This document shows, piece after piece, positions 10,064 through 18,682 of a stretch of 64,000 nt of DNA. Source of the DNA: Colwellia sp. (lineage in GTDB: Bacteria; Pseudomonadota; Gammaproteobacteria; Enterobacterales; Alteromonadaceae); NCBI GenBank assembly GCA_002733765.1, contig NVWU01000021.1, positions 220 to 64,219 on the forward strand, given 5' to 3'. The translations under genes were made by a program, and so were the position numbers. Position 1 is the stretch's first letter, and each line of letters begins with the position of its first letter. The notes beneath the pieces are model-generated. The model did not search any database. It had not been told where the DNA came from and saw nothing but the letters and a program-made list of their open reading frames with translations.

Positions 10064-11455
10064 CTACTTACCTAACAGGAAAAATATTTTTTTCGCAATA
10101 TCAATATTATCTTGTTGACCGTTGAACAGCTCGCTTTGCTTGCCAAAGGAAAATACAGGTACGTCGATGGCTGTGTGACCGCCTGAAGTCCAGCCTGTAT
10201 TCGAATATTTATTGATAATCTGTTTTACTGTAAGTGATAATGAAAACTCAAGTGCGGATATGCCTTTGAGTTGATTTATCTTAGTATTATTGTTGATTAT
10301 CGCGGTATTTTTACTGTGCATAAGTAGGGCTATATCATCGTTAGATAGTTCAAAATTAAATAATGTAGTAGTCATTACAGAATTAATTTCATTTTTGATT
10401 AGTTGTTTAGCAATGTATATTGGAGAGTGCTTCATAGTGCGCAATTTTTCAGGTTGCCATTCGTACTTTCCTTTTGCCCCGATAGTTAGACCACCAGTAC
10501 TATGATCGGCGGTTACTATGACGAGTGTGTCAGGGTTCTGCTCAACAAAGTGCTCTAAATATTCTAGTGTTTTAGCTAAGTCATCCATTTCAGCCATTGC
10601 ACCACTAATATCATTTACGTGTCCGGCCCAATCTATTTGGCTGGCTTCAATTAGCATAAAAAAGCCTTGCGCTTTTTCTGATGAATTATTTTGGTAGTCA
10701 ATAAAATGATGTACGGCCGCTTTAGTCATGGCTGATAAACGGTACTTATTTGTATCATCTAGTGCCCAGGGTAAGCCGACATCAGCAAACAGTCCAAGTA
10801 CTGGCTTATTGTTTGGTAAGTTTGTTAGATCTTGATAATTATTAATATAATGAAAACCTGCTTGTTTAAATTCGTTGACAATATTTCTGTCCTCACGAAT
10901 AAAATATTGCCAACCACCGCCAAAATATAAATCAGCTTTAATACCGTTATCTATATAACTATCGGCAATCGCATTGTAATTTTTACGATTTTCATTATGA
11001 GTTAAATATGAGGCTGGTGTCGCATGATTTATTTGTGAGGTAACAACTACTCCTGTCGCTTTACCTTGAAGTTTTGCCCACTCTAAGACCGATTGTACGC
11101 TATTTTTGTTTACATCAACGCCAATGGCGCCGTTATAGCTTTTTATGCCGGTAGCTAATGCGGTAGCACTGGCGGCTGAATCTGTCACTATACCTGAAAC
11201 AGCAGCAGGGTATGTGCTAGAAAAACCTGTTAAGTGACGATCGAATACGGTTTCTTCAATTGCTTCTGTTTCGGGATTGTCGCTAAAATAACGATAAGCG
11301 GTGGTGTACGCAGGGCCCATGCCATCACCGATGACCATGATAATATTTTTAGGTGCCGTGTTTTTTTTAGGCATCACTTCTTGTTTAGACGTTTCGGTGC
11401 TAACACAAGAGACTGTACTTAAAGAAAGTAATAAAAGGGGGAGAAAATGTCTCAT
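10064..11455 (-). CDS. Alkaline phosphatase, probable lipoprotein
   Basis: Alkaline-phosphatase superfamily phosphomonoesterase, probably anchored outside the cytoplasmic membrane and releasing phosphate from organic phosphates. The N-terminus has a signal peptide ending at a lipobox-like STVSC (Cys17). The metal and nucleophile motifs are VIGDGMGP (Asp44) and TDSAASATAL (Asp92, Ser93 as nucleophile). The metal-binding ADHSTGG appears later, and the C-terminal metal histidine is in WTSGGHTAIDVPV. Length is 463 residues. It follows the exonuclease/phosphatase-fold gene by 10 bases and is last in a three-gene unit led by a TetR regulator. Context suggests it dephosphorylates nucleotides released from extracellular nucleic acids (inference). 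Confidence 0.9.
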   Translation of the reverse strand: MRHFLPLLLLSLSTVSCVSTETSKQEVMPKKNTAPKNIIMVIGDGMGPAYTTAYRYFSDNPETEAIEETVFDRHLTGFSSTYPAAVSGIVTDSAASATALATGIKSYNGAIGVDVNKNSVQSVLEWAKLQGKATGVVVTSQINHATPASYLTHNENRKNYNAIADSYIDNGIKADLYFGGGWQYFIREDRNIVNEFKQAGFHYINNYQDLTNLPNNKPVLGLFADVGLPWALDDTNKYRLSAMTKAAVHHFIDYQNNSSEKAQGFFMLIEASQIDWAGHVNDISGAMAEMDDLAKTLEYLEHFVEQNPDTLVIVTADHSTGGLTIGAKGKYEWQPEKLRTMKHSPIYIAKQLIKNEINSVMTTTLFNFELSNDDIALLMHSKNTAIINNNTKINQLKGISALEFSLSLTVKQIINKYSNTGWTSGGHTAIDVPVFSFGKQSELFNGQQDNIDIAKKIFFLLGK

Positions 11456-11465
11456 TTTTTTCCTG

Positions 11466-12692
11466 TTATTCAGTTAGTTCTACATCAACCCATACCAAAC
11501 GATGATCGGATGAGGCTTGTCTATTTTTGATTAAACGGTAAGTGTTTTTATTCTGTTGTGGCCAAAATACGCCAGATTTTTTGATAATAAAACCAAATGT
11601 TGATGGTAATACATAATCAGCTCTCATCCCCCAGTAAGCTGTATGATATAGGCCGTTGATATTCCCACTTGAATGGTTTTGACCACCAAGGCTTGTCGGT
11701 AAAGAGTCTTGAATTTTATCGCTGCTTAGTAATGCCATGATACCTTTACTTGTTTTTGTCATAATAGCATCACCTTCAACATGAGAAGCGTTTAGATCGC
11801 CAATAATAATAAAATGTTGATCAGCTTCTAAAGCCCCTTTATGATGATTATCATCATAAATATAAGCGCCTTGTTTGGTATTAATATAGTCAAACCAGAA
11901 GCGAATTTCGTCATGGTTTCGACTGCCATTGCGATTTTCAGGGCCATCAAAAACGGGTGGGGTTGGGTGACTAGCAAGGATATGTATTGTTTTATCATTA
12001 ATTTTGATTGGAATATCCCAGTGAGATTTAGATGATAATCTTAGGGTTTGCCACGTTTCTTCTGTATACCAAGGTTGATTTGTTTCAGGGTTTATAGGTT
12101 TTACTGCGTCAGGCATATCATGCCATTTAAATTTTTGAAATGTTCTGATAGCCTTTTCGTCAATCGGATATTTAGATAATAGCACCATACCAAAGTGTCC
12201 AATAAAATAACCAAAACCATGAGTATCAACAGGTAGTTGATTTGTTTTGCCGTCATGATTTAAATCACTGTTTACTTTTACGCCCGTATTAACGGAACCT
12301 TGATAAAAATAAGGGTAGTTAATTGCATGTTGATTATGCTGCGATTTTCTTAAATAGTTATTGATGAAATAGTGAATATTGGTAGCGCTATCATCAACAC
12401 GATCAAATTCATTTAATAAAATAATATCAGGCTTAACCCTTTGAATTATTTCAGCAATATTTTTAATTTGTTGATTATTGCTTTTTAATGCATGGCTGAG
12501 TTCATTATTATTAATATTGGGCGTATACATGTCTATATTTTCAGCATAGTTTAATGCTTCCATACTGACATTAAAGGTGGCTACTCTTAGAGTAGTTGGC
12601 GCTTCTATTGTCATACCTTTACTCGACATAATTAAGCTAAAAAAAATAGAGACGAGTAATTTAGCATTGCTATGATAAATAAATGGCTTCAT
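11466..12692 (-). CDS. Exported endonuclease/exonuclease/phosphatase-fold enzyme
   Basis: EEP-superfamily (DNase I-like) metal-dependent hydrolase. Motifs: LRVATFNVSM near the start of the mature protein, DIILLNEFDRV (metal-binding Glu), a region with IIGDLNASH (Asp and Asn of the active site), and the C-terminal ASSDHRLVWVDV (catalytic Asp-His). The N-terminus has a hydrophobic export signal before TIEAPTTLR. I place the start at the ATG of MKPFIYHSN, which forms a 4-bp ATGA overlap with the TetR stop. An in-frame ATG five codons earlier is possible but less coupled. That gives 408 residues. The substrate is not proven: nucleic acid, phosphodiester or inositol phosphate are all seen in the superfamily. 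The neighbours favour nucleic acid. Confidence 0.86.
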   Translation of the reverse strand: MKPFIYHSNAKLLVSIFFSLIMSSKGMTIEAPTTLRVATFNVSMEALNYAENIDMYTPNINNNELSHALKSNNQQIKNIAEIIQRVKPDIILLNEFDRVDDSATNIHYFINNYLRKSQHNQHAINYPYFYQGSVNTGVKVNSDLNHDGKTNQLPVDTHGFGYFIGHFGMVLLSKYPIDEKAIRTFQKFKWHDMPDAVKPINPETNQPWYTEETWQTLRLSSKSHWDIPIKINDKTIHILASHPTPPVFDGPENRNGSRNHDEIRFWFDYINTKQGAYIYDDNHHKGALEADQHFIIIGDLNASHVEGDAIMTKTSKGIMALLSSDKIQDSLPTSLGGQNHSSGNINGLYHTAYWGMRADYVLPSTFGFIIKKSGVFWPQQNKNTYRLIKNRQASSDHRLVWVDVELTE

Positions 12693-13330
12693 TGCTTTAA
12701 GCCACAACCGCGCAAAATAAAATCAGTAAGAAAATTAGTTATATGGGTAATGTCATCTTCTGTGTAATCAATACGATCCATAATAGTTAATATTTGATTG
12801 TCAAAATCAGCATAATGTTGCGTTGATGACCAAATGAGAAAAATTAAGTTCACGGGTTCAATTGGTTGCATTTGCCCCTTATCAATCCAAAACTGGAAAA
12901 TTTTTGCCTTCTTTTGCACCCATTGATGAAGGTAGGTACGCGTAAAATCTTGTAAGTGTTGCGTCCCTTGAATAATTTCCATGGCGTAAATTTTAGACGC
13001 TTTAGGATTGGTAAATGACATGGTTATTTTGGCTTTAACGAATTTTTCAATGGCAAGTTTAGGGCCATCTTCAGGCAGAATATCACCAATTCCTTCATCC
13101 CACATAGTTAACGTTTGTTCTAGCACCGCATGATAAATGTTCTTTTTATTTTTAAAGTAATACAACACGTTAGCTTTTGGCATACCAGCATTGTCGGCAA
13201 TAGCTTGTACCGTAGCACCTTGATAACCTTGTGATATAAATTCATCTTGGGCAGCAGATAAAATTTTATTAACACTTATCGTCCTAATATTTTTAGACTT
13301 GTTTTTTTTTGTCATTGTATTATTTGTCAT
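12689..13330 (-). CDS. TetR-family regulator, RutR-like
   Basis: A 213-residue TetR regulator. The N-terminal helix-turn-helix is in ATVQAIADNAGMPKANVLYY and FKNKKNIYHAVLE (about 39-71), with an extended basic N-terminus (about residues 5-17). The C-terminal half resembles the RutR/YcdC type of ligand domain (FQFWIDKGQMQPIEPVNL, LIWSSTQHYADF). RutR itself senses uracil and thymine. Cytidine deaminase and thymidine phosphorylase lie in the same locus, so a pyrimidine ligand is an attractive inference. The gene leads a coupled unit with the EEP enzyme and alkaline phosphatase and diverges from the TonB receptor, the usual layout for a local regulator. Two in-frame ATGs near the 5' end leave the exact start uncertain by a few codons. 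Confidence 0.88.
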   Translation of the reverse strand: MTNNTMTKKNKSKNIRTISVNKILSAAQDEFISQGYQGATVQAIADNAGMPKANVLYYFKNKKNIYHAVLEQTLTMWDEGIGDILPEDGPKLAIEKFVKAKITMSFTNPKASKIYAMEIIQGTQHLQDFTRTYLHQWVQKKAKIFQFWIDKGQMQPIEPVNLIFLIWSSTQHYADFDNQILTIMDRIDYTEDDITHITNFLTDFILRGCGLKQ

Positions 13331-13636
13331 TAACTTTTGATTATAACGTTAATATTGAACAAAACTTTATTATTGATTATTTGGTGTTAAATCACGTTAT
13401 ATTGCCTACGATAAATATTTTTTTTGTATAAATAATAGTTATTTATATTTTTAATCATATCGTTATTTATCAAAAAATACAAAAAACTGACCTTTTGGTG
13501 TGTTTTTAAATTTATTATATTTTTTTTACTCAAATTAAGTTAGTTTAACTAGCTATGTAATTAAATTGTAAAGTAATGCTATTACAGTCTAAAGAAAAAC
13601 AATAATTAACCCATAGAAATAGATAGGAATACTAAG
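13331..13636. other. Divergent control region between TetR regulator and TonB receptor
   Basis: About 306 very AT-rich bases hold the promoters of both divergent units. I see no coding frame. A RutR-like half-site pair is listed separately at 13488-13501. A poly-T rich segment (about 13515-13530) and a second TTGGTGTTAAA stretch near 13380 are the other notable features. Confidence 0.45.
13488..13501. promoter_or_regulatory. Possible RutR-like operator
   Basis: TGACCTTTTGGTGT resembles the core of the E. coli RutR site TTGACCANNTGGTCAA: TGACC, a short gap, then TGGT. The right arm is imperfect. It lies between the divergent TetR gene and TonB receptor, where such a regulator would be expected to bind. 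Low information content makes a chance match possible. Confidence 0.25.
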
Positions 13637-16600
13637 ATGAATATCTACCCTCTAACACGAATAGCTGGTGCATTAGTTGTTGCGCTTGGTTTATCAACTT
13701 CGGTTGTTTCAACTGATGTAATGGCAAATACCACTTCTTCAGGAATTAAAGGCCAAGTTGTAGGACCAAAAGGCAATGCTGCTATTGGCACTCAGGTTAC
13801 TATTATTCATACTCCCTCTGGTACAACTAAAACAGCTCTTGTAAATCAGTGGGGCGGATTTGCGGTGAAAGGCTTAAGAGTAGGTGGTCCTTATAGAATA
13901 ATTATTCACTCTGATATTTTTGAAGATACTGAGCTTACCGATGTGTTTTTAACATTAAGTGAAACTTACCCTGTTAATGTCTCGCTTGAAGCGCAACAAG
14001 AGATTGAAACCATTACTGTAACAGGGCGTGTCGTTAATAAAAATTATGGTAGTAATAGCCCTTCTTCAAACTTTAACTTGAAAGATATTCAATTAACGCC
14101 AACCGTGAATCGCGACATAAAAGATGTCATCCGTGTTGATCCTCGTATATATATCGATGAAACCTCTAGCGGTGGCGCTATTCAATGTGCCGGCGGTAAT
14201 CCGCGATTCAACAGTTTAACTGTTGATGGTGCACGTATGAACGATAACTTTGGTTTAAGTAGTAATGGTTATCCAACGGTTCGCATTCCTTTTTCTTATG
14301 ATGCTATCGACCAAGTTGCGGTAGAGTTAGCACCGTTTGATGTGCAATATGGTGGTTTTACCTCTTGTAACATTAATGCGGTAACTAAGTCTGGCGGTAA
14401 TGAAGTTCATGGTAGTGTTTTCGTAGATTACACCAATGATTCATTAAAAGGTGATCGTTTGGAGGGCACTAAAATACCTACTGGTGATTACAATGAAAAA
14501 CGTTATGGGTTTAATGTAGGCCTGCCATTAATTGAAGATAAATTGTTTGTTTTTGCGGCTTATGAAAAATTAGATGGCGCACAAATCATGCAGTACTCGC
14601 CCTTTGATAATGGGGCGGTAATACAAAGTGATATTGATAGAATCATTCAAATAGCAAAAGAAAAATATAACTATGATCCAGGCACTTTAGTGCCAAGCAT
14701 GCCGGTAAAAGATGAAAAAATCTTAGTGAAACTTGATTGGAATATCAATGATAGCCACCGATTAAACTTTGTTTATAATTACAATGATGGTTTTGAAGTA
14801 GACCAATCAGATGAAGGGTCTACTCGTTTATCTTTGTCTAACCATTTTTATGAGCGTGGTGCTAAATTTACTTCCTATGTATCATCATTATATTCAGATT
14901 GGAGCGATAATTTTTCGTCAGAAATTCGTCTTGGTTATTCAGAGCTTGATAATCGTCAAGTTTCCTTCGATCAAGCCAGTGGTTTTGGTGAATTTAGAAT
15001 TGAAAAAGTTGGTGCTGACCGTGGTAAAGACATTGATGTTTATCTAGGACCCGATGATTCTCGTCAATCAAATAAATTAAATTATGATAATTTTTCTTTG
15101 AAAATAGCCGGTACCTATTACCTTGATGACCATGAGTTATATTTTGGTTATGAACGGGAGGAATTAGATGTATTCAATTTATTTGTTCAGCATAGCCAAA
15201 CGGAAACACGCTTTAATAACATTGAAGATTTTGAATCTGGGCTAGCGGATGATGTTTATTACGGTAATGCCAGTTCGCATAACCCTGATGATGCAGCGGG
15301 TGAATTTAAATATGCGTTAAATACGGTGTATTTTCAAGACAAGTTTGAGTTGACTGATTATGATGTCATTATCACTGCGGGCTTACGTTATGATTGGTAT
15401 ACCAGTAATGACAAGCCTACTCATAACCAAAATTTTGAAGATAGATATGGTTATTCAAATGCTCAGAACCTTGATGGTATTGATTTAATTCAACCGCGCT
15501 TTGGCTTTAACTGGGCAGCGACAGAGCAATTAGAAGTACGTGGCGGCTTTGGTTTATATTCTGGCGGTAATCCTAATGTTTGGATATCAAATAGTTATTC
15601 AAATGATGGTGTTCGTAACATTCAAGATTCAATCAAAGATGTTCAAATACTTGGTGTAAACGCGATTGATTATAATGGCACAGGTCAGCCTGGTTATGAT
15701 ATACCACAATCACTTTATGACGATATAGGTAGTGGTATCATTGATGATAGCACTAATGCTACGGATCCAAATTTTGAAATTCCTTCAGAATGGAAATATT
15801 CATTAGGCTTAACTTATGTAACGGCTGATGAATATGTATTAATGGCTGATTTACTCTATACAGATAAACAAAACTCAGCCACGATTAGTAATTTAGCGGA
15901 TGAGATTGTGGCAACTGCCCCTGATGGTCGTCCGGTTTATGATAGTGTTAATCACTCAGGTGAATCGGATTTTTTATTAACTAATGTGACCGGAGATGAT
16001 GCTAAATCTACTGTACTTTCCTTTGCGGTAAGCAAAGCATATGACAATGGTTTTACTTTTTCTGCTTCATATGCTTATACCGATGCACAAGATGTTCATC
16101 CGATGACTAGCTCTGTCGCATTTTCTAACTATCACGGTATTGCGGTATCAGATCCTGAAAATCCACAGTTAGCAGCGTCAAACTATGAAATTCCACATCG
16201 TTTTACCTTAAATTTAACGTATAGTCGTGAGCTTTTCAGTGGTTACCAAACAAACTTTAGTGTCTTTGGACAGGCTAACCAAGGTCATCCATATACGTAT
16301 TCTTTTGCTAATCACCGTAATAGCGGATTAGGCTTTAATGATAAGAACCGTCAGTTACTTTATATACCGACGGAAAATGACTCGAGCGTTGTTTATGGTG
16401 CTGGTTTTGATCAACAAGCCTTTAATGACTTTATTGCCAGTGAAGGGTTAACCCGTGGTCAAATAATGAATAGAAATGAGTTAGAAGGTAAGTGGTGGAC
16501 TAAGTTTGACATACGTGTAGAGCAAGAGTTTATCGGCTTCAGGGCTGGACACAAAGCGAGTGCTTATTTTGTTATTGAAAACTTTGGTAATATGCTAAAT

Positions 16601-16771
16601 GATGATTGGGGTGTACTTAAGGAAGGAGACTTTTTGCAAGGTGCAGTGACTGCAAGTATCACTGATGATGGCAAGTATTCTTATGATGAGTTTAATAATC
16701 CATCATCGTCAAGCCGAGTAACTGATGCGTCATTATGGGAAATGCGTATTGGTATTAAGTACGACTTTTAA
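13637..16771 (+). CDS. TonB-dependent outer-membrane receptor with carboxypeptidase-like N-terminal domain (Oar-like)
   Basis: Large outer-membrane transporter of 1044 residues. A signal peptide ends near VMANTT (about residue 31). It is followed by a CarboxypepD_reg-like beta-sandwich (SGIKGQVVGPKGNAAIGTQV to about 115) and a TonB box (ETITVTGR, about 129-136). The plug domain follows, then a long beta-barrel ending in the aromatic terminus MRIGIKYDF. Energy comes from TonB-ExbBD; the substrate is not evident from sequence. Two cysteines in the plug (IQCAGGN and TSCNINA) may form a disulfide. It is divergent from the TetR/nuclease/phosphatase unit and upstream of cdd-deoA, so nucleosides or nucleic-acid fragments are plausible cargo (inference). 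A terminator follows. Confidence 0.92.
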   Translation: MNIYPLTRIAGALVVALGLSTSVVSTDVMANTTSSGIKGQVVGPKGNAAIGTQVTIIHTPSGTTKTALVNQWGGFAVKGLRVGGPYRIIIHSDIFEDTELTDVFLTLSETYPVNVSLEAQQEIETITVTGRVVNKNYGSNSPSSNFNLKDIQLTPTVNRDIKDVIRVDPRIYIDETSSGGAIQCAGGNPRFNSLTVDGARMNDNFGLSSNGYPTVRIPFSYDAIDQVAVELAPFDVQYGGFTSCNINAVTKSGGNEVHGSVFVDYTNDSLKGDRLEGTKIPTGDYNEKRYGFNVGLPLIEDKLFVFAAYEKLDGAQIMQYSPFDNGAVIQSDIDRIIQIAKEKYNYDPGTLVPSMPVKDEKILVKLDWNINDSHRLNFVYNYNDGFEVDQSDEGSTRLSLSNHFYERGAKFTSYVSSLYSDWSDNFSSEIRLGYSELDNRQVSFDQASGFGEFRIEKVGADRGKDIDVYLGPDDSRQSNKLNYDNFSLKIAGTYYLDDHELYFGYEREELDVFNLFVQHSQTETRFNNIEDFESGLADDVYYGNASSHNPDDAAGEFKYALNTVYFQDKFELTDYDVIITAGLRYDWYTSNDKPTHNQNFEDRYGYSNAQNLDGIDLIQPRFGFNWAATEQLEVRGGFGLYSGGNPNVWISNSYSNDGVRNIQDSIKDVQILGVNAIDYNGTGQPGYDIPQSLYDDIGSGIIDDSTNATDPNFEIPSEWKYSLGLTYVTADEYVLMADLLYTDKQNSATISNLADEIVATAPDGRPVYDSVNHSGESDFLLTNVTGDDAKSTVLSFAVSKAYDNGFTFSASYAYTDAQDVHPMTSSVAFSNYHGIAVSDPENPQLAASNYEIPHRFTLNLTYSRELFSGYQTNFSVFGQANQGHPYTYSFANHRNSGLGFNDKNRQLLYIPTENDSSVVYGAGFDQQAFNDFIASEGLTRGQIMNRNELEGKWWTKFDIRVEQEFIGFRAGHKASAYFVIENFGNMLNDDWGVLKEGDFLQGAVTASITDDGKYSYDEFNNPSSSSRVTDASLWEMRIGIKYDF

Positions 16772-16811
16772 TTACTGCACTGTTTAGTTAGAGCAGTTTT
16801 TACCAAGTAAT

Positions 16812-16838
16812 ACCGTGCTTAAATGCGCGGTTTTTTTT
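16812..16838 (+). terminator. Intrinsic terminator after the TonB receptor
   Basis: ACCGTGC, a 6-base loop, GCGCGGT and then a run of eight T. The stem is 7 bp with one G-T pair. It separates the receptor from cdd 24 bases later, so cdd-deoA may be read through partially or have its own promoter. Confidence 0.8.
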
Positions 16839-16861
16839 GCTTAAATTGATAAGAGAATCAA

Positions 16862-17320
16862 ATGTCCTTTAAAAAGAATACTGATATTGTCGACGTTACG
16901 GTTAAACAATGGGGTGAATTATCTAAAGCGGCTGAAACCGCTTTTAATAAAGCTTATGCGCCTTATAGTGATTTTAAGGTAGGTGCTGCCGCATTAACAG
17001 CTGATAATCAAATAGTTCAAGGGTGTAATGTTGAAAATGCATCTTATGGATTAACGATATGTGCTGAGCGAAATTGCATTGCCAATGGCGTTATTACTAA
17101 CCAAAGTAATAAAAAAGTTACCTTTACTGCTTTGGTTATTTACACCGCGCAAGAAAAGTTAACACCTCCTTGTGGAGCCTGTCGACAAGTGGTCAGTGAA
17201 TTTTTCCCAAAAAATGCGTTAGTTATGGCAGTAAATCACCTTAACGAGCAGAAAAAGTGGACGGTGGAACAATTACTGCCTGATGCTTTTACTCCTTATG
17301 ATTTACTTAATAAAACATAA
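16862..17320 (+). CDS. cdd: Cytidine deaminase (short, tetrameric type)
   Basis: Converts cytidine and deoxycytidine to uridine and deoxyuridine in pyrimidine salvage. Zinc motifs: ICAERNCI (Cys67, proton-shuttling Glu69) and PPCGACRQ (Cys104, Cys107). NVENASYG is the substrate-binding motif. The 152-residue length matches the short homotetrameric class, as in Bacillus, not the roughly 294-residue dimeric enzyme of E. coli. deoA follows after 30 bases, so the two form an operon. The 16812 terminator lies just upstream. Confidence 0.95.
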   Translation: MSFKKNTDIVDVTVKQWGELSKAAETAFNKAYAPYSDFKVGAAALTADNQIVQGCNVENASYGLTICAERNCIANGVITNQSNKKVTFTALVIYTAQEKLTPPCGACRQVVSEFFPKNALVMAVNHLNEQKKWTVEQLLPDAFTPYDLLNKT

Positions 17321-17350
17321 TTAATTGCAAACGTATAAGGAATTTACATT

Positions 17351-18682
17351 ATGGTATTACCCCAAGAAATTATTGCTAAAAAATGTGCTGGACAAACCTT
17401 AAGCGAAATAGATATCGGTTTATTTGTCGATGGCTTAATGTCGTCAAACTTTAATGATGCGCAAGTAGGCGCGATGGCGATGGCTATATTTCTGCAAGGC
17501 TTAAATAAACAAGAAACGGTGTATTTAACCAATGCTATGATGAAATCAGGAAAAGTACTTTCTTGGGGAAAGGTTAAAAACACTGATGGTTTATTGCTCA
17601 ATGGGCCGATACTTGATAAACACTCAACAGGTGGCGTTGGCGATAAAGTCAGCTTTATGTTAGCCGCAATAATTGCTGCGTGTGGAGGATACGTGCCAAT
17701 GATTTCAGGTCGCGGCCTAGGTCATACTGGTGGTACTGCAGATAAATTAGAAAGCATCGCAGGCTTTAATGTCCAGCCAAAGTTGGAGCAGTTTCAACGT
17801 ATCGTGGCAGATTTAGGTATGGCTATCATTTCACAAACGCCGGAGCTAGCACCAGCAGATAGACGTTTGTATGCTATTCGTGATGTTACCGCGACGGTTG
17901 CTTCAATACCGCTAATCACGGCCTCCATTTTATCTAAAAAATTAGCTGCGGGACTTGATGTACTTGTGATGGATATCAAGGTAGGTAATGGTGCATTGAT
18001 GACCGAGCTTGATCAAGCCCGCGCTCTAGCAAAAAATATCACTACTGTTGCTAATAATGCGGGTGTTAATACTCAAGCTATTATCACTGATATGAATCAA
18101 GTCTTGGGCAATACAGCGGGTAATGCCTTAGAAATAAATGAAACGGTGAAATATCTAACTGGAAAATTGCGTGAGCCTAGGTTACATAAGGTTGTCGTAA
18201 GCTTAGCAAAAGCGATGTTGATAAATAGTCAATTGGCAGCAGATGAAAAGAGTGCTTTTTTTCAAATTGATCGGGCTTTAGCATCAGGCAAGGCGGCAGA
18301 AATATTTGCTAAGATGATTAGTGCACTAGGGGGACCAAATGACTTATTAGAGAAGCCATGGCGTTCAATGAATAAGGCTGAAGTTATTATTGACGTGTTA
18401 GCGCCGTGCCATGGTTACATTAATACCATGAACACTCGTGATATAGGTTTGTCTGTAGTTAGTTTAGGTGGTGGGCGAACGAGTAATGATCAAATCATAG
18501 ATCACAGCGTTGGCTTTGATTGTATTTTACCTATTGGCACTAAAGTTAATAAGGGGGATGTATTAGCAAGAGTGCATGCGTCTTCTAAACTCAATGCAGA
18601 ACTTGCTAGTCAACAATATATTAAGGCACTAGTGTTTTCAGATGTTTCTGTACCCGAAGCAAAAGTCATTTATCGTTTTTAA
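17351..18682 (+). CDS. deoA: Thymidine phosphorylase
   Basis: Phosphorolysis of thymidine (and deoxyuridine) to the free base and deoxyribose-1-phosphate. Length is 443 residues, as in E. coli DeoA (440). Signatures: LDKHSTGGVGDKVS (phosphate site, about 93-106), MISGRGLGHTGGTADKLESI (about 117-136) and MDIKVGNGALM. It lies 30 bases after cdd, and together they degrade deoxycytidine and thymidine. The remaining deo genes (deoC, deoB, deoD) are not in this window. A copy of the 31-bp dispersed repeat begins 4 bases after its stop. Confidence 0.96.
   Translation: MVLPQEIIAKKCAGQTLSEIDIGLFVDGLMSSNFNDAQVGAMAMAIFLQGLNKQETVYLTNAMMKSGKVLSWGKVKNTDGLLLNGPILDKHSTGGVGDKVSFMLAAIIAACGGYVPMISGRGLGHTGGTADKLESIAGFNVQPKLEQFQRIVADLGMAIISQTPELAPADRRLYAIRDVTATVASIPLITASILSKKLAAGLDVLVMDIKVGNGALMTELDQARALAKNITTVANNAGVNTQAIITDMNQVLGNTAGNALEINETVKYLTGKLREPRLHKVVVSLAKAMLINSQLAADEKSAFFQIDRALASGKAAEIFAKMISALGGPNDLLEKPWRSMNKAEVIIDVLAPCHGYINTMNTRDIGLSVVSLGGGRTSNDQIIDHSVGFDCILPIGTKVNKGDVLARVHASSKLNAELASQQYIKALVFSDVSVPEAKVIYRF

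Follow-up and report, generated by a model that had tools for sequence, protein, structure and literature searches.

The question raised by the locus described here is whether neighbouring genes for hydrolysis outside the cell, outer-membrane uptake and nucleoside breakdown act together in the use of nucleic acids. The locus lies in a 64,000-nucleotide stretch of Colwellia sp. DNA (the window), taken from a genome of 4.05 Mb in 41 contigs that is 98.9% complete, and consists of genes for a TetR-family regulator, a DNase I-fold (EEP) enzyme, an alkaline phosphatase, a TonB-dependent receptor, cytidine deaminase (cdd) and thymidine phosphorylase (deoA). A sequence-only reading had grouped them as one regulated nucleic-acid scavenging locus. 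This grouping is supported by the co-occurrence of the genes in relatives, by nucleoside genes in their neighbourhood and by RutR-like boxes, and we consider it likely, with a probability of roughly 0.72, that the locus forms the entry stage, at the outer membrane and in the periplasm, of a nucleic-acid and nucleoside utilization regulon controlled by a RutR-like repressor. Below, G codes denote genomes (G000 is the window's own genome) and L codes denote fetched locus stretches.

Gene content and layout of the locus

The open reading frame list and profile searches confirmed that the six genes are real and have the positions, strands and families that had been assigned to them:

10064..11455, minus strand: PhoA-family alkaline phosphatase, probably exported, possible lipoprotein (PF00245, 325.5 bits, E-value 6.7e-97)
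11466..12692, minus strand: DNase I-fold (EEP) phosphodiesterase/nuclease candidate with a signal-like N-terminus (PF03372, 107.4 bits; ATGA overlap with the TetR gene)
12689..13330, minus strand: RutR-like TetR-family regulator (PF08362 TetR_C_3, 144.3 bits, E-value 3.3e-42; alignment to RutR 3loc, E-value 3.7e-35)
13487..13502, no strand assigned: predicted operator, RutR-like box CTGACCTTTTGGTGTG, top score in the 64-kb window
13637..16771, plus strand: Oar-like TonB-dependent receptor, candidate importer of nucleic-acid fragments or nucleosides (PF13620 CarboxypepD_reg, 42 bits; PF25183 OMP_b-brl_4, 128.8 bits)
16812..16838, plus strand: intrinsic-terminator-like hairpin and T run in the receptor/cdd gap (GC-rich stem-loop; counterparts in L005 and L006 by eye)
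16862..17320, plus strand: cdd, cytidine deaminase (TIGR01354, 139.6 bits, cut-off 113.65)
17351..18682, plus strand: deoA, thymidine phosphorylase (TIGR02643, 582 bits, cut-off 570.7)

Open reading frame prediction placed the start of the EEP gene at a TTG (12707); if the ATG at 12692 is taken as the start, it overlaps the TetR stop codon in an ATGA, and the overlap claimed earlier holds. For the phosphatase, the family assignment (PhoA, by the PF00245 domain) and the start 10 bases past the EEP stop stood, and the lipoprotein part of the claim is reduced to a possibility that is not conserved, because its signal sequence fits only a permissive lipobox, for which 26 of the 44 orthologues examined gave a match. 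The EEP enzyme belongs to the DNase I-like superfamily by PF03372 and conserved positions, and Cdd and DeoA both exceed the equivalog cut-offs. With an N-terminal CarboxypepD_reg domain and a beta-barrel, the receptor has the make-up of a TonB-dependent receptor; for the plug domain (PF07715) no match was listed for the window receptor at an E-value of 0.001, and those of L075 and L074 scored 25.4 (cut-off 23.9) and 21.7, respectively. A sequence search of solved structures gave no match for the receptor or the EEP enzyme; the nearest sequence to the phosphatase was 3a52, a cold-active alkaline phosphatase (E-value 1.3e-116).

Co-occurrence of the genes in relatives

Each of the six proteins was searched for in 147 genomes of the family, at thresholds differing by protein. 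Matches were found in 114 (EEP), 80 (TetR, E-value 1e-30), 126 (phosphatase, 1e-60), 129 (receptor, 1e-120), 81 (deoA, 1e-60) and 113 (cdd, 1e-12) genomes. Gene order was read in 118 fetched stretches of at most 20 kb each, which cover the surroundings of EEP matches and two island continuations; group sizes refer to stretches, not genomes, with some genomes represented by two or more, and L042 spans just 4 kb.

A TetR at least 57% identical to that of the window (close TetR) was present in 47 genomes, as counted by hand from the match list, and in 45 of these the TetR, EEP and phosphatase genes were together. In the two exceptions the TetR gene was on a different contig from EEP (G029) or an EEP match was absent (G073). 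The close-TetR loci (n = 46, window included) contained EEP, phosphatase and receptor genes in 45 cases each and cdd and deoA in 38 cases each; cdd and deoA were not seen in eight stretches, one of which is only 4 kb long. Further nucleoside genes in the 46 loci were tdk (29), deoC (27), nupC (25), upp (22), udk (14) and xdhA (2), and in L043 the xanthine dehydrogenase genes xdhABC follow the receptor in place of cdd and deoA. The neighbours noted in relatives comprise upp, tdk, deoC, nupC, udk, deoB, deoD, xdhABC and endonuclease I, with a nucleoside hydrolase nearby in one locus; among 17 named loci found with EEP, the closest were from Colwellia. In genomes without a linked TetR, EEP and receptor genes were together in 46 loci, 36 of which also contained udk and nupC. 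Since the outer neighbours vary between loci, this co-occurrence is not plain synteny: in most of the loci compared, the six genes stay together while their surroundings change.

Beyond the family, the TetR search at an E-value of 1e-60 gave matches in 10 of 295 genomes of the order, and outside the family in just three genomes of one family (four hits). Four short stretches around these out-of-family matches contained no EEP or phosphatase gene on inspection by eye. In L189, L190 and L192, from another family of the order, TetR relatives of 47-53% identity are flanked by a Bmp-like substrate-binding protein and an amidohydrolase, as judged by eye from N-terminal sequence only.

A predicted operator in the shared control region

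When spaced words were counted without a seed across 52 TetR-receptor gaps, TGAC-N4-TGGT was the top filtered word, with 37 gaps; no word exceeded 9 gaps in one shuffled set. A second set of words, not palindromic, was nearly as common; one of them, TGTA-N8-GTAA, was present in 35 of the 52 gaps, and the set is perhaps a promoter or the site of another regulator. From 49 non-duplicate gaps (the duplicates L011, L013 and L014 were in the 52-gap count and were left out of the matrix; L012 has no such gap) we built a palindromic weight matrix with the consensus TTGACCATATGGTCAA and an information content of 17.9 bits; in 30 shuffled and reseeded runs the maximum was 8.4. The matrix was seeded with the RutR form, the consensus used for comparison being what we take to be that of RutR; seven of 15 permuted seeds converged on the same motif and eight elsewhere, with lower information. 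The RutR site is described as a roughly 16-base palindrome (PMC10891134; here as below, cited papers in their accessible parts). The box predicted here is a 16-base palindrome at what would be the regulator's own divergent promoter, as in RutR, and the best site of the window scored 16.6 bits, the runner-up in the 64 kb scoring 11.8.

Regions outside the matrix training served as a held-out test, with a site of at least 14 bits as the threshold. A box was present in 35 of 38 receptor-cdd gaps. At EEP-receptor loci it was found in 12 of 14 if a RutR-like TetR was encoded elsewhere in the genome, and in 0 of 32 in genomes without one at an E-value of 1e-30 (1 of 32 by a broader definition of the upstream site). 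With 300 permuted matrices the means for the same three sets were 0.33, 0.18 and 0.35 and the maxima 32, 11 and 5, the latter presumably from orders near the original. Because the genomes are related, a per-genus tally is the fairer figure; by our own count under the broader definition it was 6/7 versus 1/9 (Fisher p 0.009). All scanned loci together contained 182 sites above 15 bits, training sites included, 155 of them outside called coding sequence. In relatives, boxes also precede cdd, udk-nupC and an EEP-phosphatase fusion (see below), and common control is supported by their presence both in the shared control region and before these genes.

The NupC family had one match in the window's own genome, in a stretch where udk-nupC-deoC-tdk is divergent from deoB. 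A second box, TTGACTAGTTGGTCAT, lies between the two units (G000:C6:56294, equivalent to L210:8295) and, with 14.9 bits, is the best site of the 11.1-kb stretch. As it was found only through the nupC look-up, it is a targeted finding and not the product of an unbiased scan. Genes for inner steps of the chain thus lie next to a predicted operator of similar type in this genome.

The rightward gene order, receptor-cdd-deoA, was as the sequence-only reading had it, and the single unit that it assumed is doubtful. In the window, a GC-rich hairpin followed by a T run separates receptor from cdd, and the two nearest relatives, L005 and L006, have counterparts by eye, so the three genes are probably not one simple unit. 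The model of two operons with receptor, cdd and deoA in one transcript is weakened by this hairpin and by the box that cdd has to itself in 35 of 38 loci; in the window's genome cdd-deoA may depend on read-through. Scans for promoters (37 found, 36.0 expected) and terminators (6 found, 6.7 expected) were not above chance, and the hairpin therefore rests on its own sequence and on its counterparts in L005 and L006.

The regulator

The regulator is called RutR-like because its score with the RutR equivalog profile TIGR03613 (157.7 bits) is under the cut-off of 368. Its divergent neighbour is the receptor gene, not rutA-G. In RutR, uracil is contacted by W77, W167, Q171 and Q179 (PMC10891134), and with the same residue numbers these are present in 46, 44, 46 and 46, respectively, of the 46 linked regulators. 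In the window regulator, Y97 of RutR is replaced by F and L100 by A.

Several relatives hold both the close regulator and a separate RutR-like protein of about 40% identity. As a control for the pocket, ten places of such ~40% relatives or their cdd-deoA genes were fetched, and nine regulators were obtained. All nine keep the four contact residues, with a single exception at 179, and the three that were scanned were also under the TIGR03613 cut-off. Because the paralogues keep these residues too, they fit a nucleobase pocket but do not single out the base, and the assignment of uracil or thymine as ligand from the conserved pocket was rejected.

As to gene context, the paralogues of L199, L200, L205 and L206 are divergent from xdhABC with a box between, and are likely purine-catabolism regulators of the RutR-like family. 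The neighbours of the L201 regulator encode guanine deaminase and adenosine deaminase as well as Cdd and DeoA, that of L203 and cdd-deoA are divergently arranged, and L208 has a different gene context; for L202 and L207 no box of 14 bits was found within the stretch. PuuE and the deaminases were named for L200 and L201 only.

The EEP enzyme and the phosphatase

Seven residues of the EEP enzyme (N41, E95, H242, D299, N301, D396 and H397), which we take to be catalytic, are invariant in 119 of 119 aligned homologues. An AlphaFold2 model was confident (pLDDT 91.4); Foldseek ranked an uncharacterised EEP protein (4ruw) first, followed by sphingomyelinases, TDP2, nocturnin and exonuclease III; the query TM-scores were near 0.4-0.5. 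Judged from its gene context, the modelled enzyme may act on nucleic acid.

EEP and phosphatase are fused in G135 (L077, L078), in an 829-residue protein with PF03372 at residues 54-405 and PF00245 at 421-827. The island around the fusion also encodes cdd, deoA, a deoB-like metalloenzyme, nupC, transaldolase, glucose-6-phosphate isomerase, a deoD-like phosphorylase, two endonuclease I proteins and transketolase (the names cdd and deoA come from similarity to the window genes, those of deoB and deoD from inspection by eye). Comparable fusions occur in G130 and G069. In L103 (5107-10923) an EEP protein with MAM-like and PKD domains is followed by PhoX, an alkaline phosphatase family unrelated to PhoA. 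A search for endonuclease I (PF04231) in the window's own genome gave no match at an E-value of 0.001.

After udk-nupC in L106 lies a gene (15277-16116) for a 2OG-Fe(II) oxygenase (PF03171, PF14226), for which a role as nucleobase or nucleoside dioxygenase is conceivable. Altogether 35 stretches contained relatives of this oxygenase; 14 of them belong to group B and 21 to group C.

Replacement of the receptor gene

Sequence comparison indicates that the receptor has been repeatedly swapped in place among relatives, most of its neighbours remaining unchanged. The clearest pair is G066 and G099. The DNA around the receptor is 99.5% identical over 5139 bases and 99.3% over 11211 bases, the proteins of the locus are 100% (TetR), 99% (EEP), 98% (phosphatase), 100% (Cdd) and 100% (DeoA) identical, and the receptors (L074:5508-8804 and L075:5121-8390) 38%. 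An assembly fault is argued against by the fact that G066 is one contig and the other allele is present in G099, G128 and G021. When Oar-like receptors of G066 and G099 were compared as a control, five of seven comparable ones were 96.6-99.9% identical over the fetched stretch, the locus receptor being replaced and one other partly so; three further hits had no fetched counterpart.

Among 37 locus pairs with a mean TetR/EEP/phosphatase identity of at least 75%, which overlap and are not independent, the receptors were less than 60% identical in 22. In 17 of these 22 pairs both ends of the replaced segment could be mapped by BLAST. The point at which homology is lost ranges from 329 bases upstream to 285 bases downstream of the approximate receptor start, and the point at which it returns from 45 bases upstream to 402 bases downstream of the receptor stop; the boundaries are blurred in less similar pairs. 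The reverse was also found, receptors being 86% identical between L005 and G135 (flanking proteins 57-70%) and 91% identical between G034 and G099 (flanks 54-83%). In a quick tree with midpoint root the receptors fall in two deep groups of 51 and 57 rows, each with linked and unlinked loci, and a tandem of both types is present in some loci.

The receptor is not the sole abruptly diverging gene, because the phosphatase is also low in some pairs. Between the window and L005 the receptors are 57% and the phosphatases 62% identical, and TetR, EEP and DeoA 87, 83 and 89%, respectively. Phosphatase identities of 56-62%, with 86-95% for TetR and 84-92% for DeoA, were seen for L005 compared with the window and with L006, and in pairs involving L054, L056, L062, L066, L069, L047 and L050.

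Proposed mechanism and alternatives

Gene content, conservation, the EEP-phosphatase fusion, the distribution of boxes and the box at udk-nupC-deoC-tdk/deoB were computed; from these we infer the substrates of the enzymes, their export, the direction and cargo of transport, repression, the base sensed and the order of the outer steps. In the proposed pathway, the exported DNase I-fold enzyme would cut phosphodiester bonds in extracellular nucleic acid or oligonucleotides and the exported alkaline phosphatase would remove phosphate. The TonB-dependent receptor would carry fragments, nucleotides or nucleosides across the outer membrane, before or after hydrolysis, and NupC, encoded elsewhere in the window's genome, would move nucleosides inward. 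Cdd and DeoA, together with DeoB and DeoC, would turn pyrimidine deoxynucleosides into free bases and sugar phosphates. The RutR-like TetR repressor, bound to the palindrome between the divergent units, would hold both off, and a free nucleobase, as a product of the pathway, would free it from the palindrome. A more tentative picture, with the odds somewhat against it, has a RutR-family nucleobase switch over a full regulon extending from the outer membrane to central metabolism, in which the receptor would actively import nucleosides or pieces of nucleic acid and its gene body would be an interchangeable cassette. Homologous recombination near the start and stop codons would time and again bring in a receptor less than 60% identical, without touching the operator and most of the enzymes, because phages or bacteriocins use the receptor as a door as well.

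Several observations weigh against a utilization regulon. Some EEP loci had no recognised nucleoside neighbour when gene order was read in the fetched stretches, the EEP fold is equally near nucleases and sphingomyelinases and does not discriminate between them, and paralogues, several of which come from purine-catabolism clusters, conserve the pocket residues just as well. As to control, the terminator-like hairpin lies between receptor and cdd, no box precedes cdd in the window, L049 and L095 (3 of 38 loci), and the EEP locus lacks a box in two group B genomes that encode a RutR-like TetR. A strict box pattern gave six sites in the window's own genome, compared with seven for the reversed control, and missed the deoB box; five of these sites, outside the locus, adjoin seemingly unrelated genes by eye, and two of them, at 19.7 and 16.5 bits, match the locus site in score. 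Because there was no excess over the reversed control, a genome-wide regulon defined by the strict pattern was set aside.

The nearness of the EEP fold to sphingomyelinases, the EEP gene adjoining PhoX in L103 and the hairpin (in most relatives also a separate box) before cdd would all fit a locus serving mainly phosphorus scavenging, in which EEP would be a broad phosphodiesterase acting on phospholipid headgroups and diesters, the phosphatase would release phosphate and cdd-deoA would be mere neighbours with a promoter of their own. However, the same RutR-like box stands before the receptor/TetR unit and before cdd, and udk and nupC lie beside EEP-receptor in 36 of 46 other loci; we regard this explanation as quite improbable. 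It is rather doubtful, too, that purine utilization was the original function, with regulators of the family sensing a purine base and cdd-deoA as later additions. The four of nine ~40% paralogues that are divergent from xdhABC with a box between, the guanine and adenosine deaminase genes at L201 and the xdhABC genes after the receptor of L043 speak for it, whereas 38 of the 46 linked loci carry cdd and deoA, with tdk in 29, deoC in 27 and upp in 22, the paralogues L201 and L203 adjoin cdd-deoA, and L202 and L207 have no 14-bit box in the stretch. It appears improbable that the locus is no more than the usual regulon for pyrimidine catabolism, under a regulator that is just the RutR orthologue. 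The box type and the pocket are the same as in RutR, and RutR regulons were reported for 68 proteobacterial genomes (PMC5343134), but the TIGR03613 score is under the cut-off, though three scanned paralogues are under it too, and several relatives hold this regulator in addition to the ~40% RutR-like protein.

The swapping of the receptor may be driven by phages or bacteriocins that use it, and not by cargo, for which we see a nearly even chance. Such pressure would account for receptors of 38% identity between flanks of 99% and for the five of seven comparable Oar-like receptors left unswapped in G066 and G099; moreover, the nucleoside channel Tsx of E. coli is a phage and colicin receptor (PMC11658791), and replacement islands of exposed structures have been tied to phages (PMC4033161). 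A change of cargo, however, would produce the same pattern, some loci retain both receptor types in tandem, and the strong divergence of the phosphatase in some pairs (56-62% identity) is unexplained by phage pressure on the receptor. The locus supplies a specific receptor candidate, a regulator whose operator is predicted, an EEP enzyme paired with a phosphatase, and natural pairs of swapped receptors in loci that are otherwise nearly identical. With these at hand, the questions of cargo and of phages are directly testable.

Comparison with known systems

DNA feeding by marine bacteria is already known (PMC8289736), and RutR regulons, described for 68 genomes with an average of 10.9 targets, were labelled pyrimidine catabolism (PMC5343134). 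In the accessible part of a 2024 review of TonB-dependent substrates, nucleosides are mentioned only with Tsx (PMC11658791). Among the papers listed in the literature searches, which covered subscription papers thinly, none described such a locus, the inclusion of a TonB-dependent receptor in a regulon of this kind, or receptor swapping; PMC5343134 may list some RutR targets in Alteromonadales. The parts are known separately; the combined locus, the TonB receptor in a RutR-like regulon and the in-place swapping appear to be new to the accessible literature that was searched.

The regulator resembles E. coli RutR (rutAG/carAB regulon) in being a TetR_C_3 protein, in its 16-base palindromic box and in having W77, W167, Q171 and Q179 at identical positions. 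It differs in scoring under the equivalog cut-off, in its linkage to an EEP-phosphatase-receptor locus and not to rutA-G, and in the Y97 to F and L100 to A replacements. With the use of extracellular DNA by Shewanella and Vibrio (ExeM, Xds/Dns, PhoX, UshA, CpdB and NupC), as far as it is described in the accessible reports, the locus would share outer hydrolysis, dephosphorylation, nucleoside uptake and deo catabolism; in contrast to those systems, the window has a PhoA-type phosphatase in the EEP operon, with a TonB-dependent receptor and a RutR-like regulator both linked to it. Polysaccharide-utilization loci likewise combine a depolymerase, a TonB receptor, catabolism and a dedicated regulator in one locus, whereas the six genes of the window include no SusD or carbohydrate-active enzyme and have nucleoside enzymes instead. 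Like Tsx, the receptor is a candidate for nucleoside entry through the outer membrane, but Tsx is a nucleoside-specific porin and not a TonB-dependent importer. Finally, as in replacement flexible genomic islands (PMC4033161, accessible part), surface genes appear to be exchanged between conserved flanks; unlike in those islands, the exchange concerns one gene body inside a metabolic locus; the operator is kept, as are both ends of the gene in the clearest pair.

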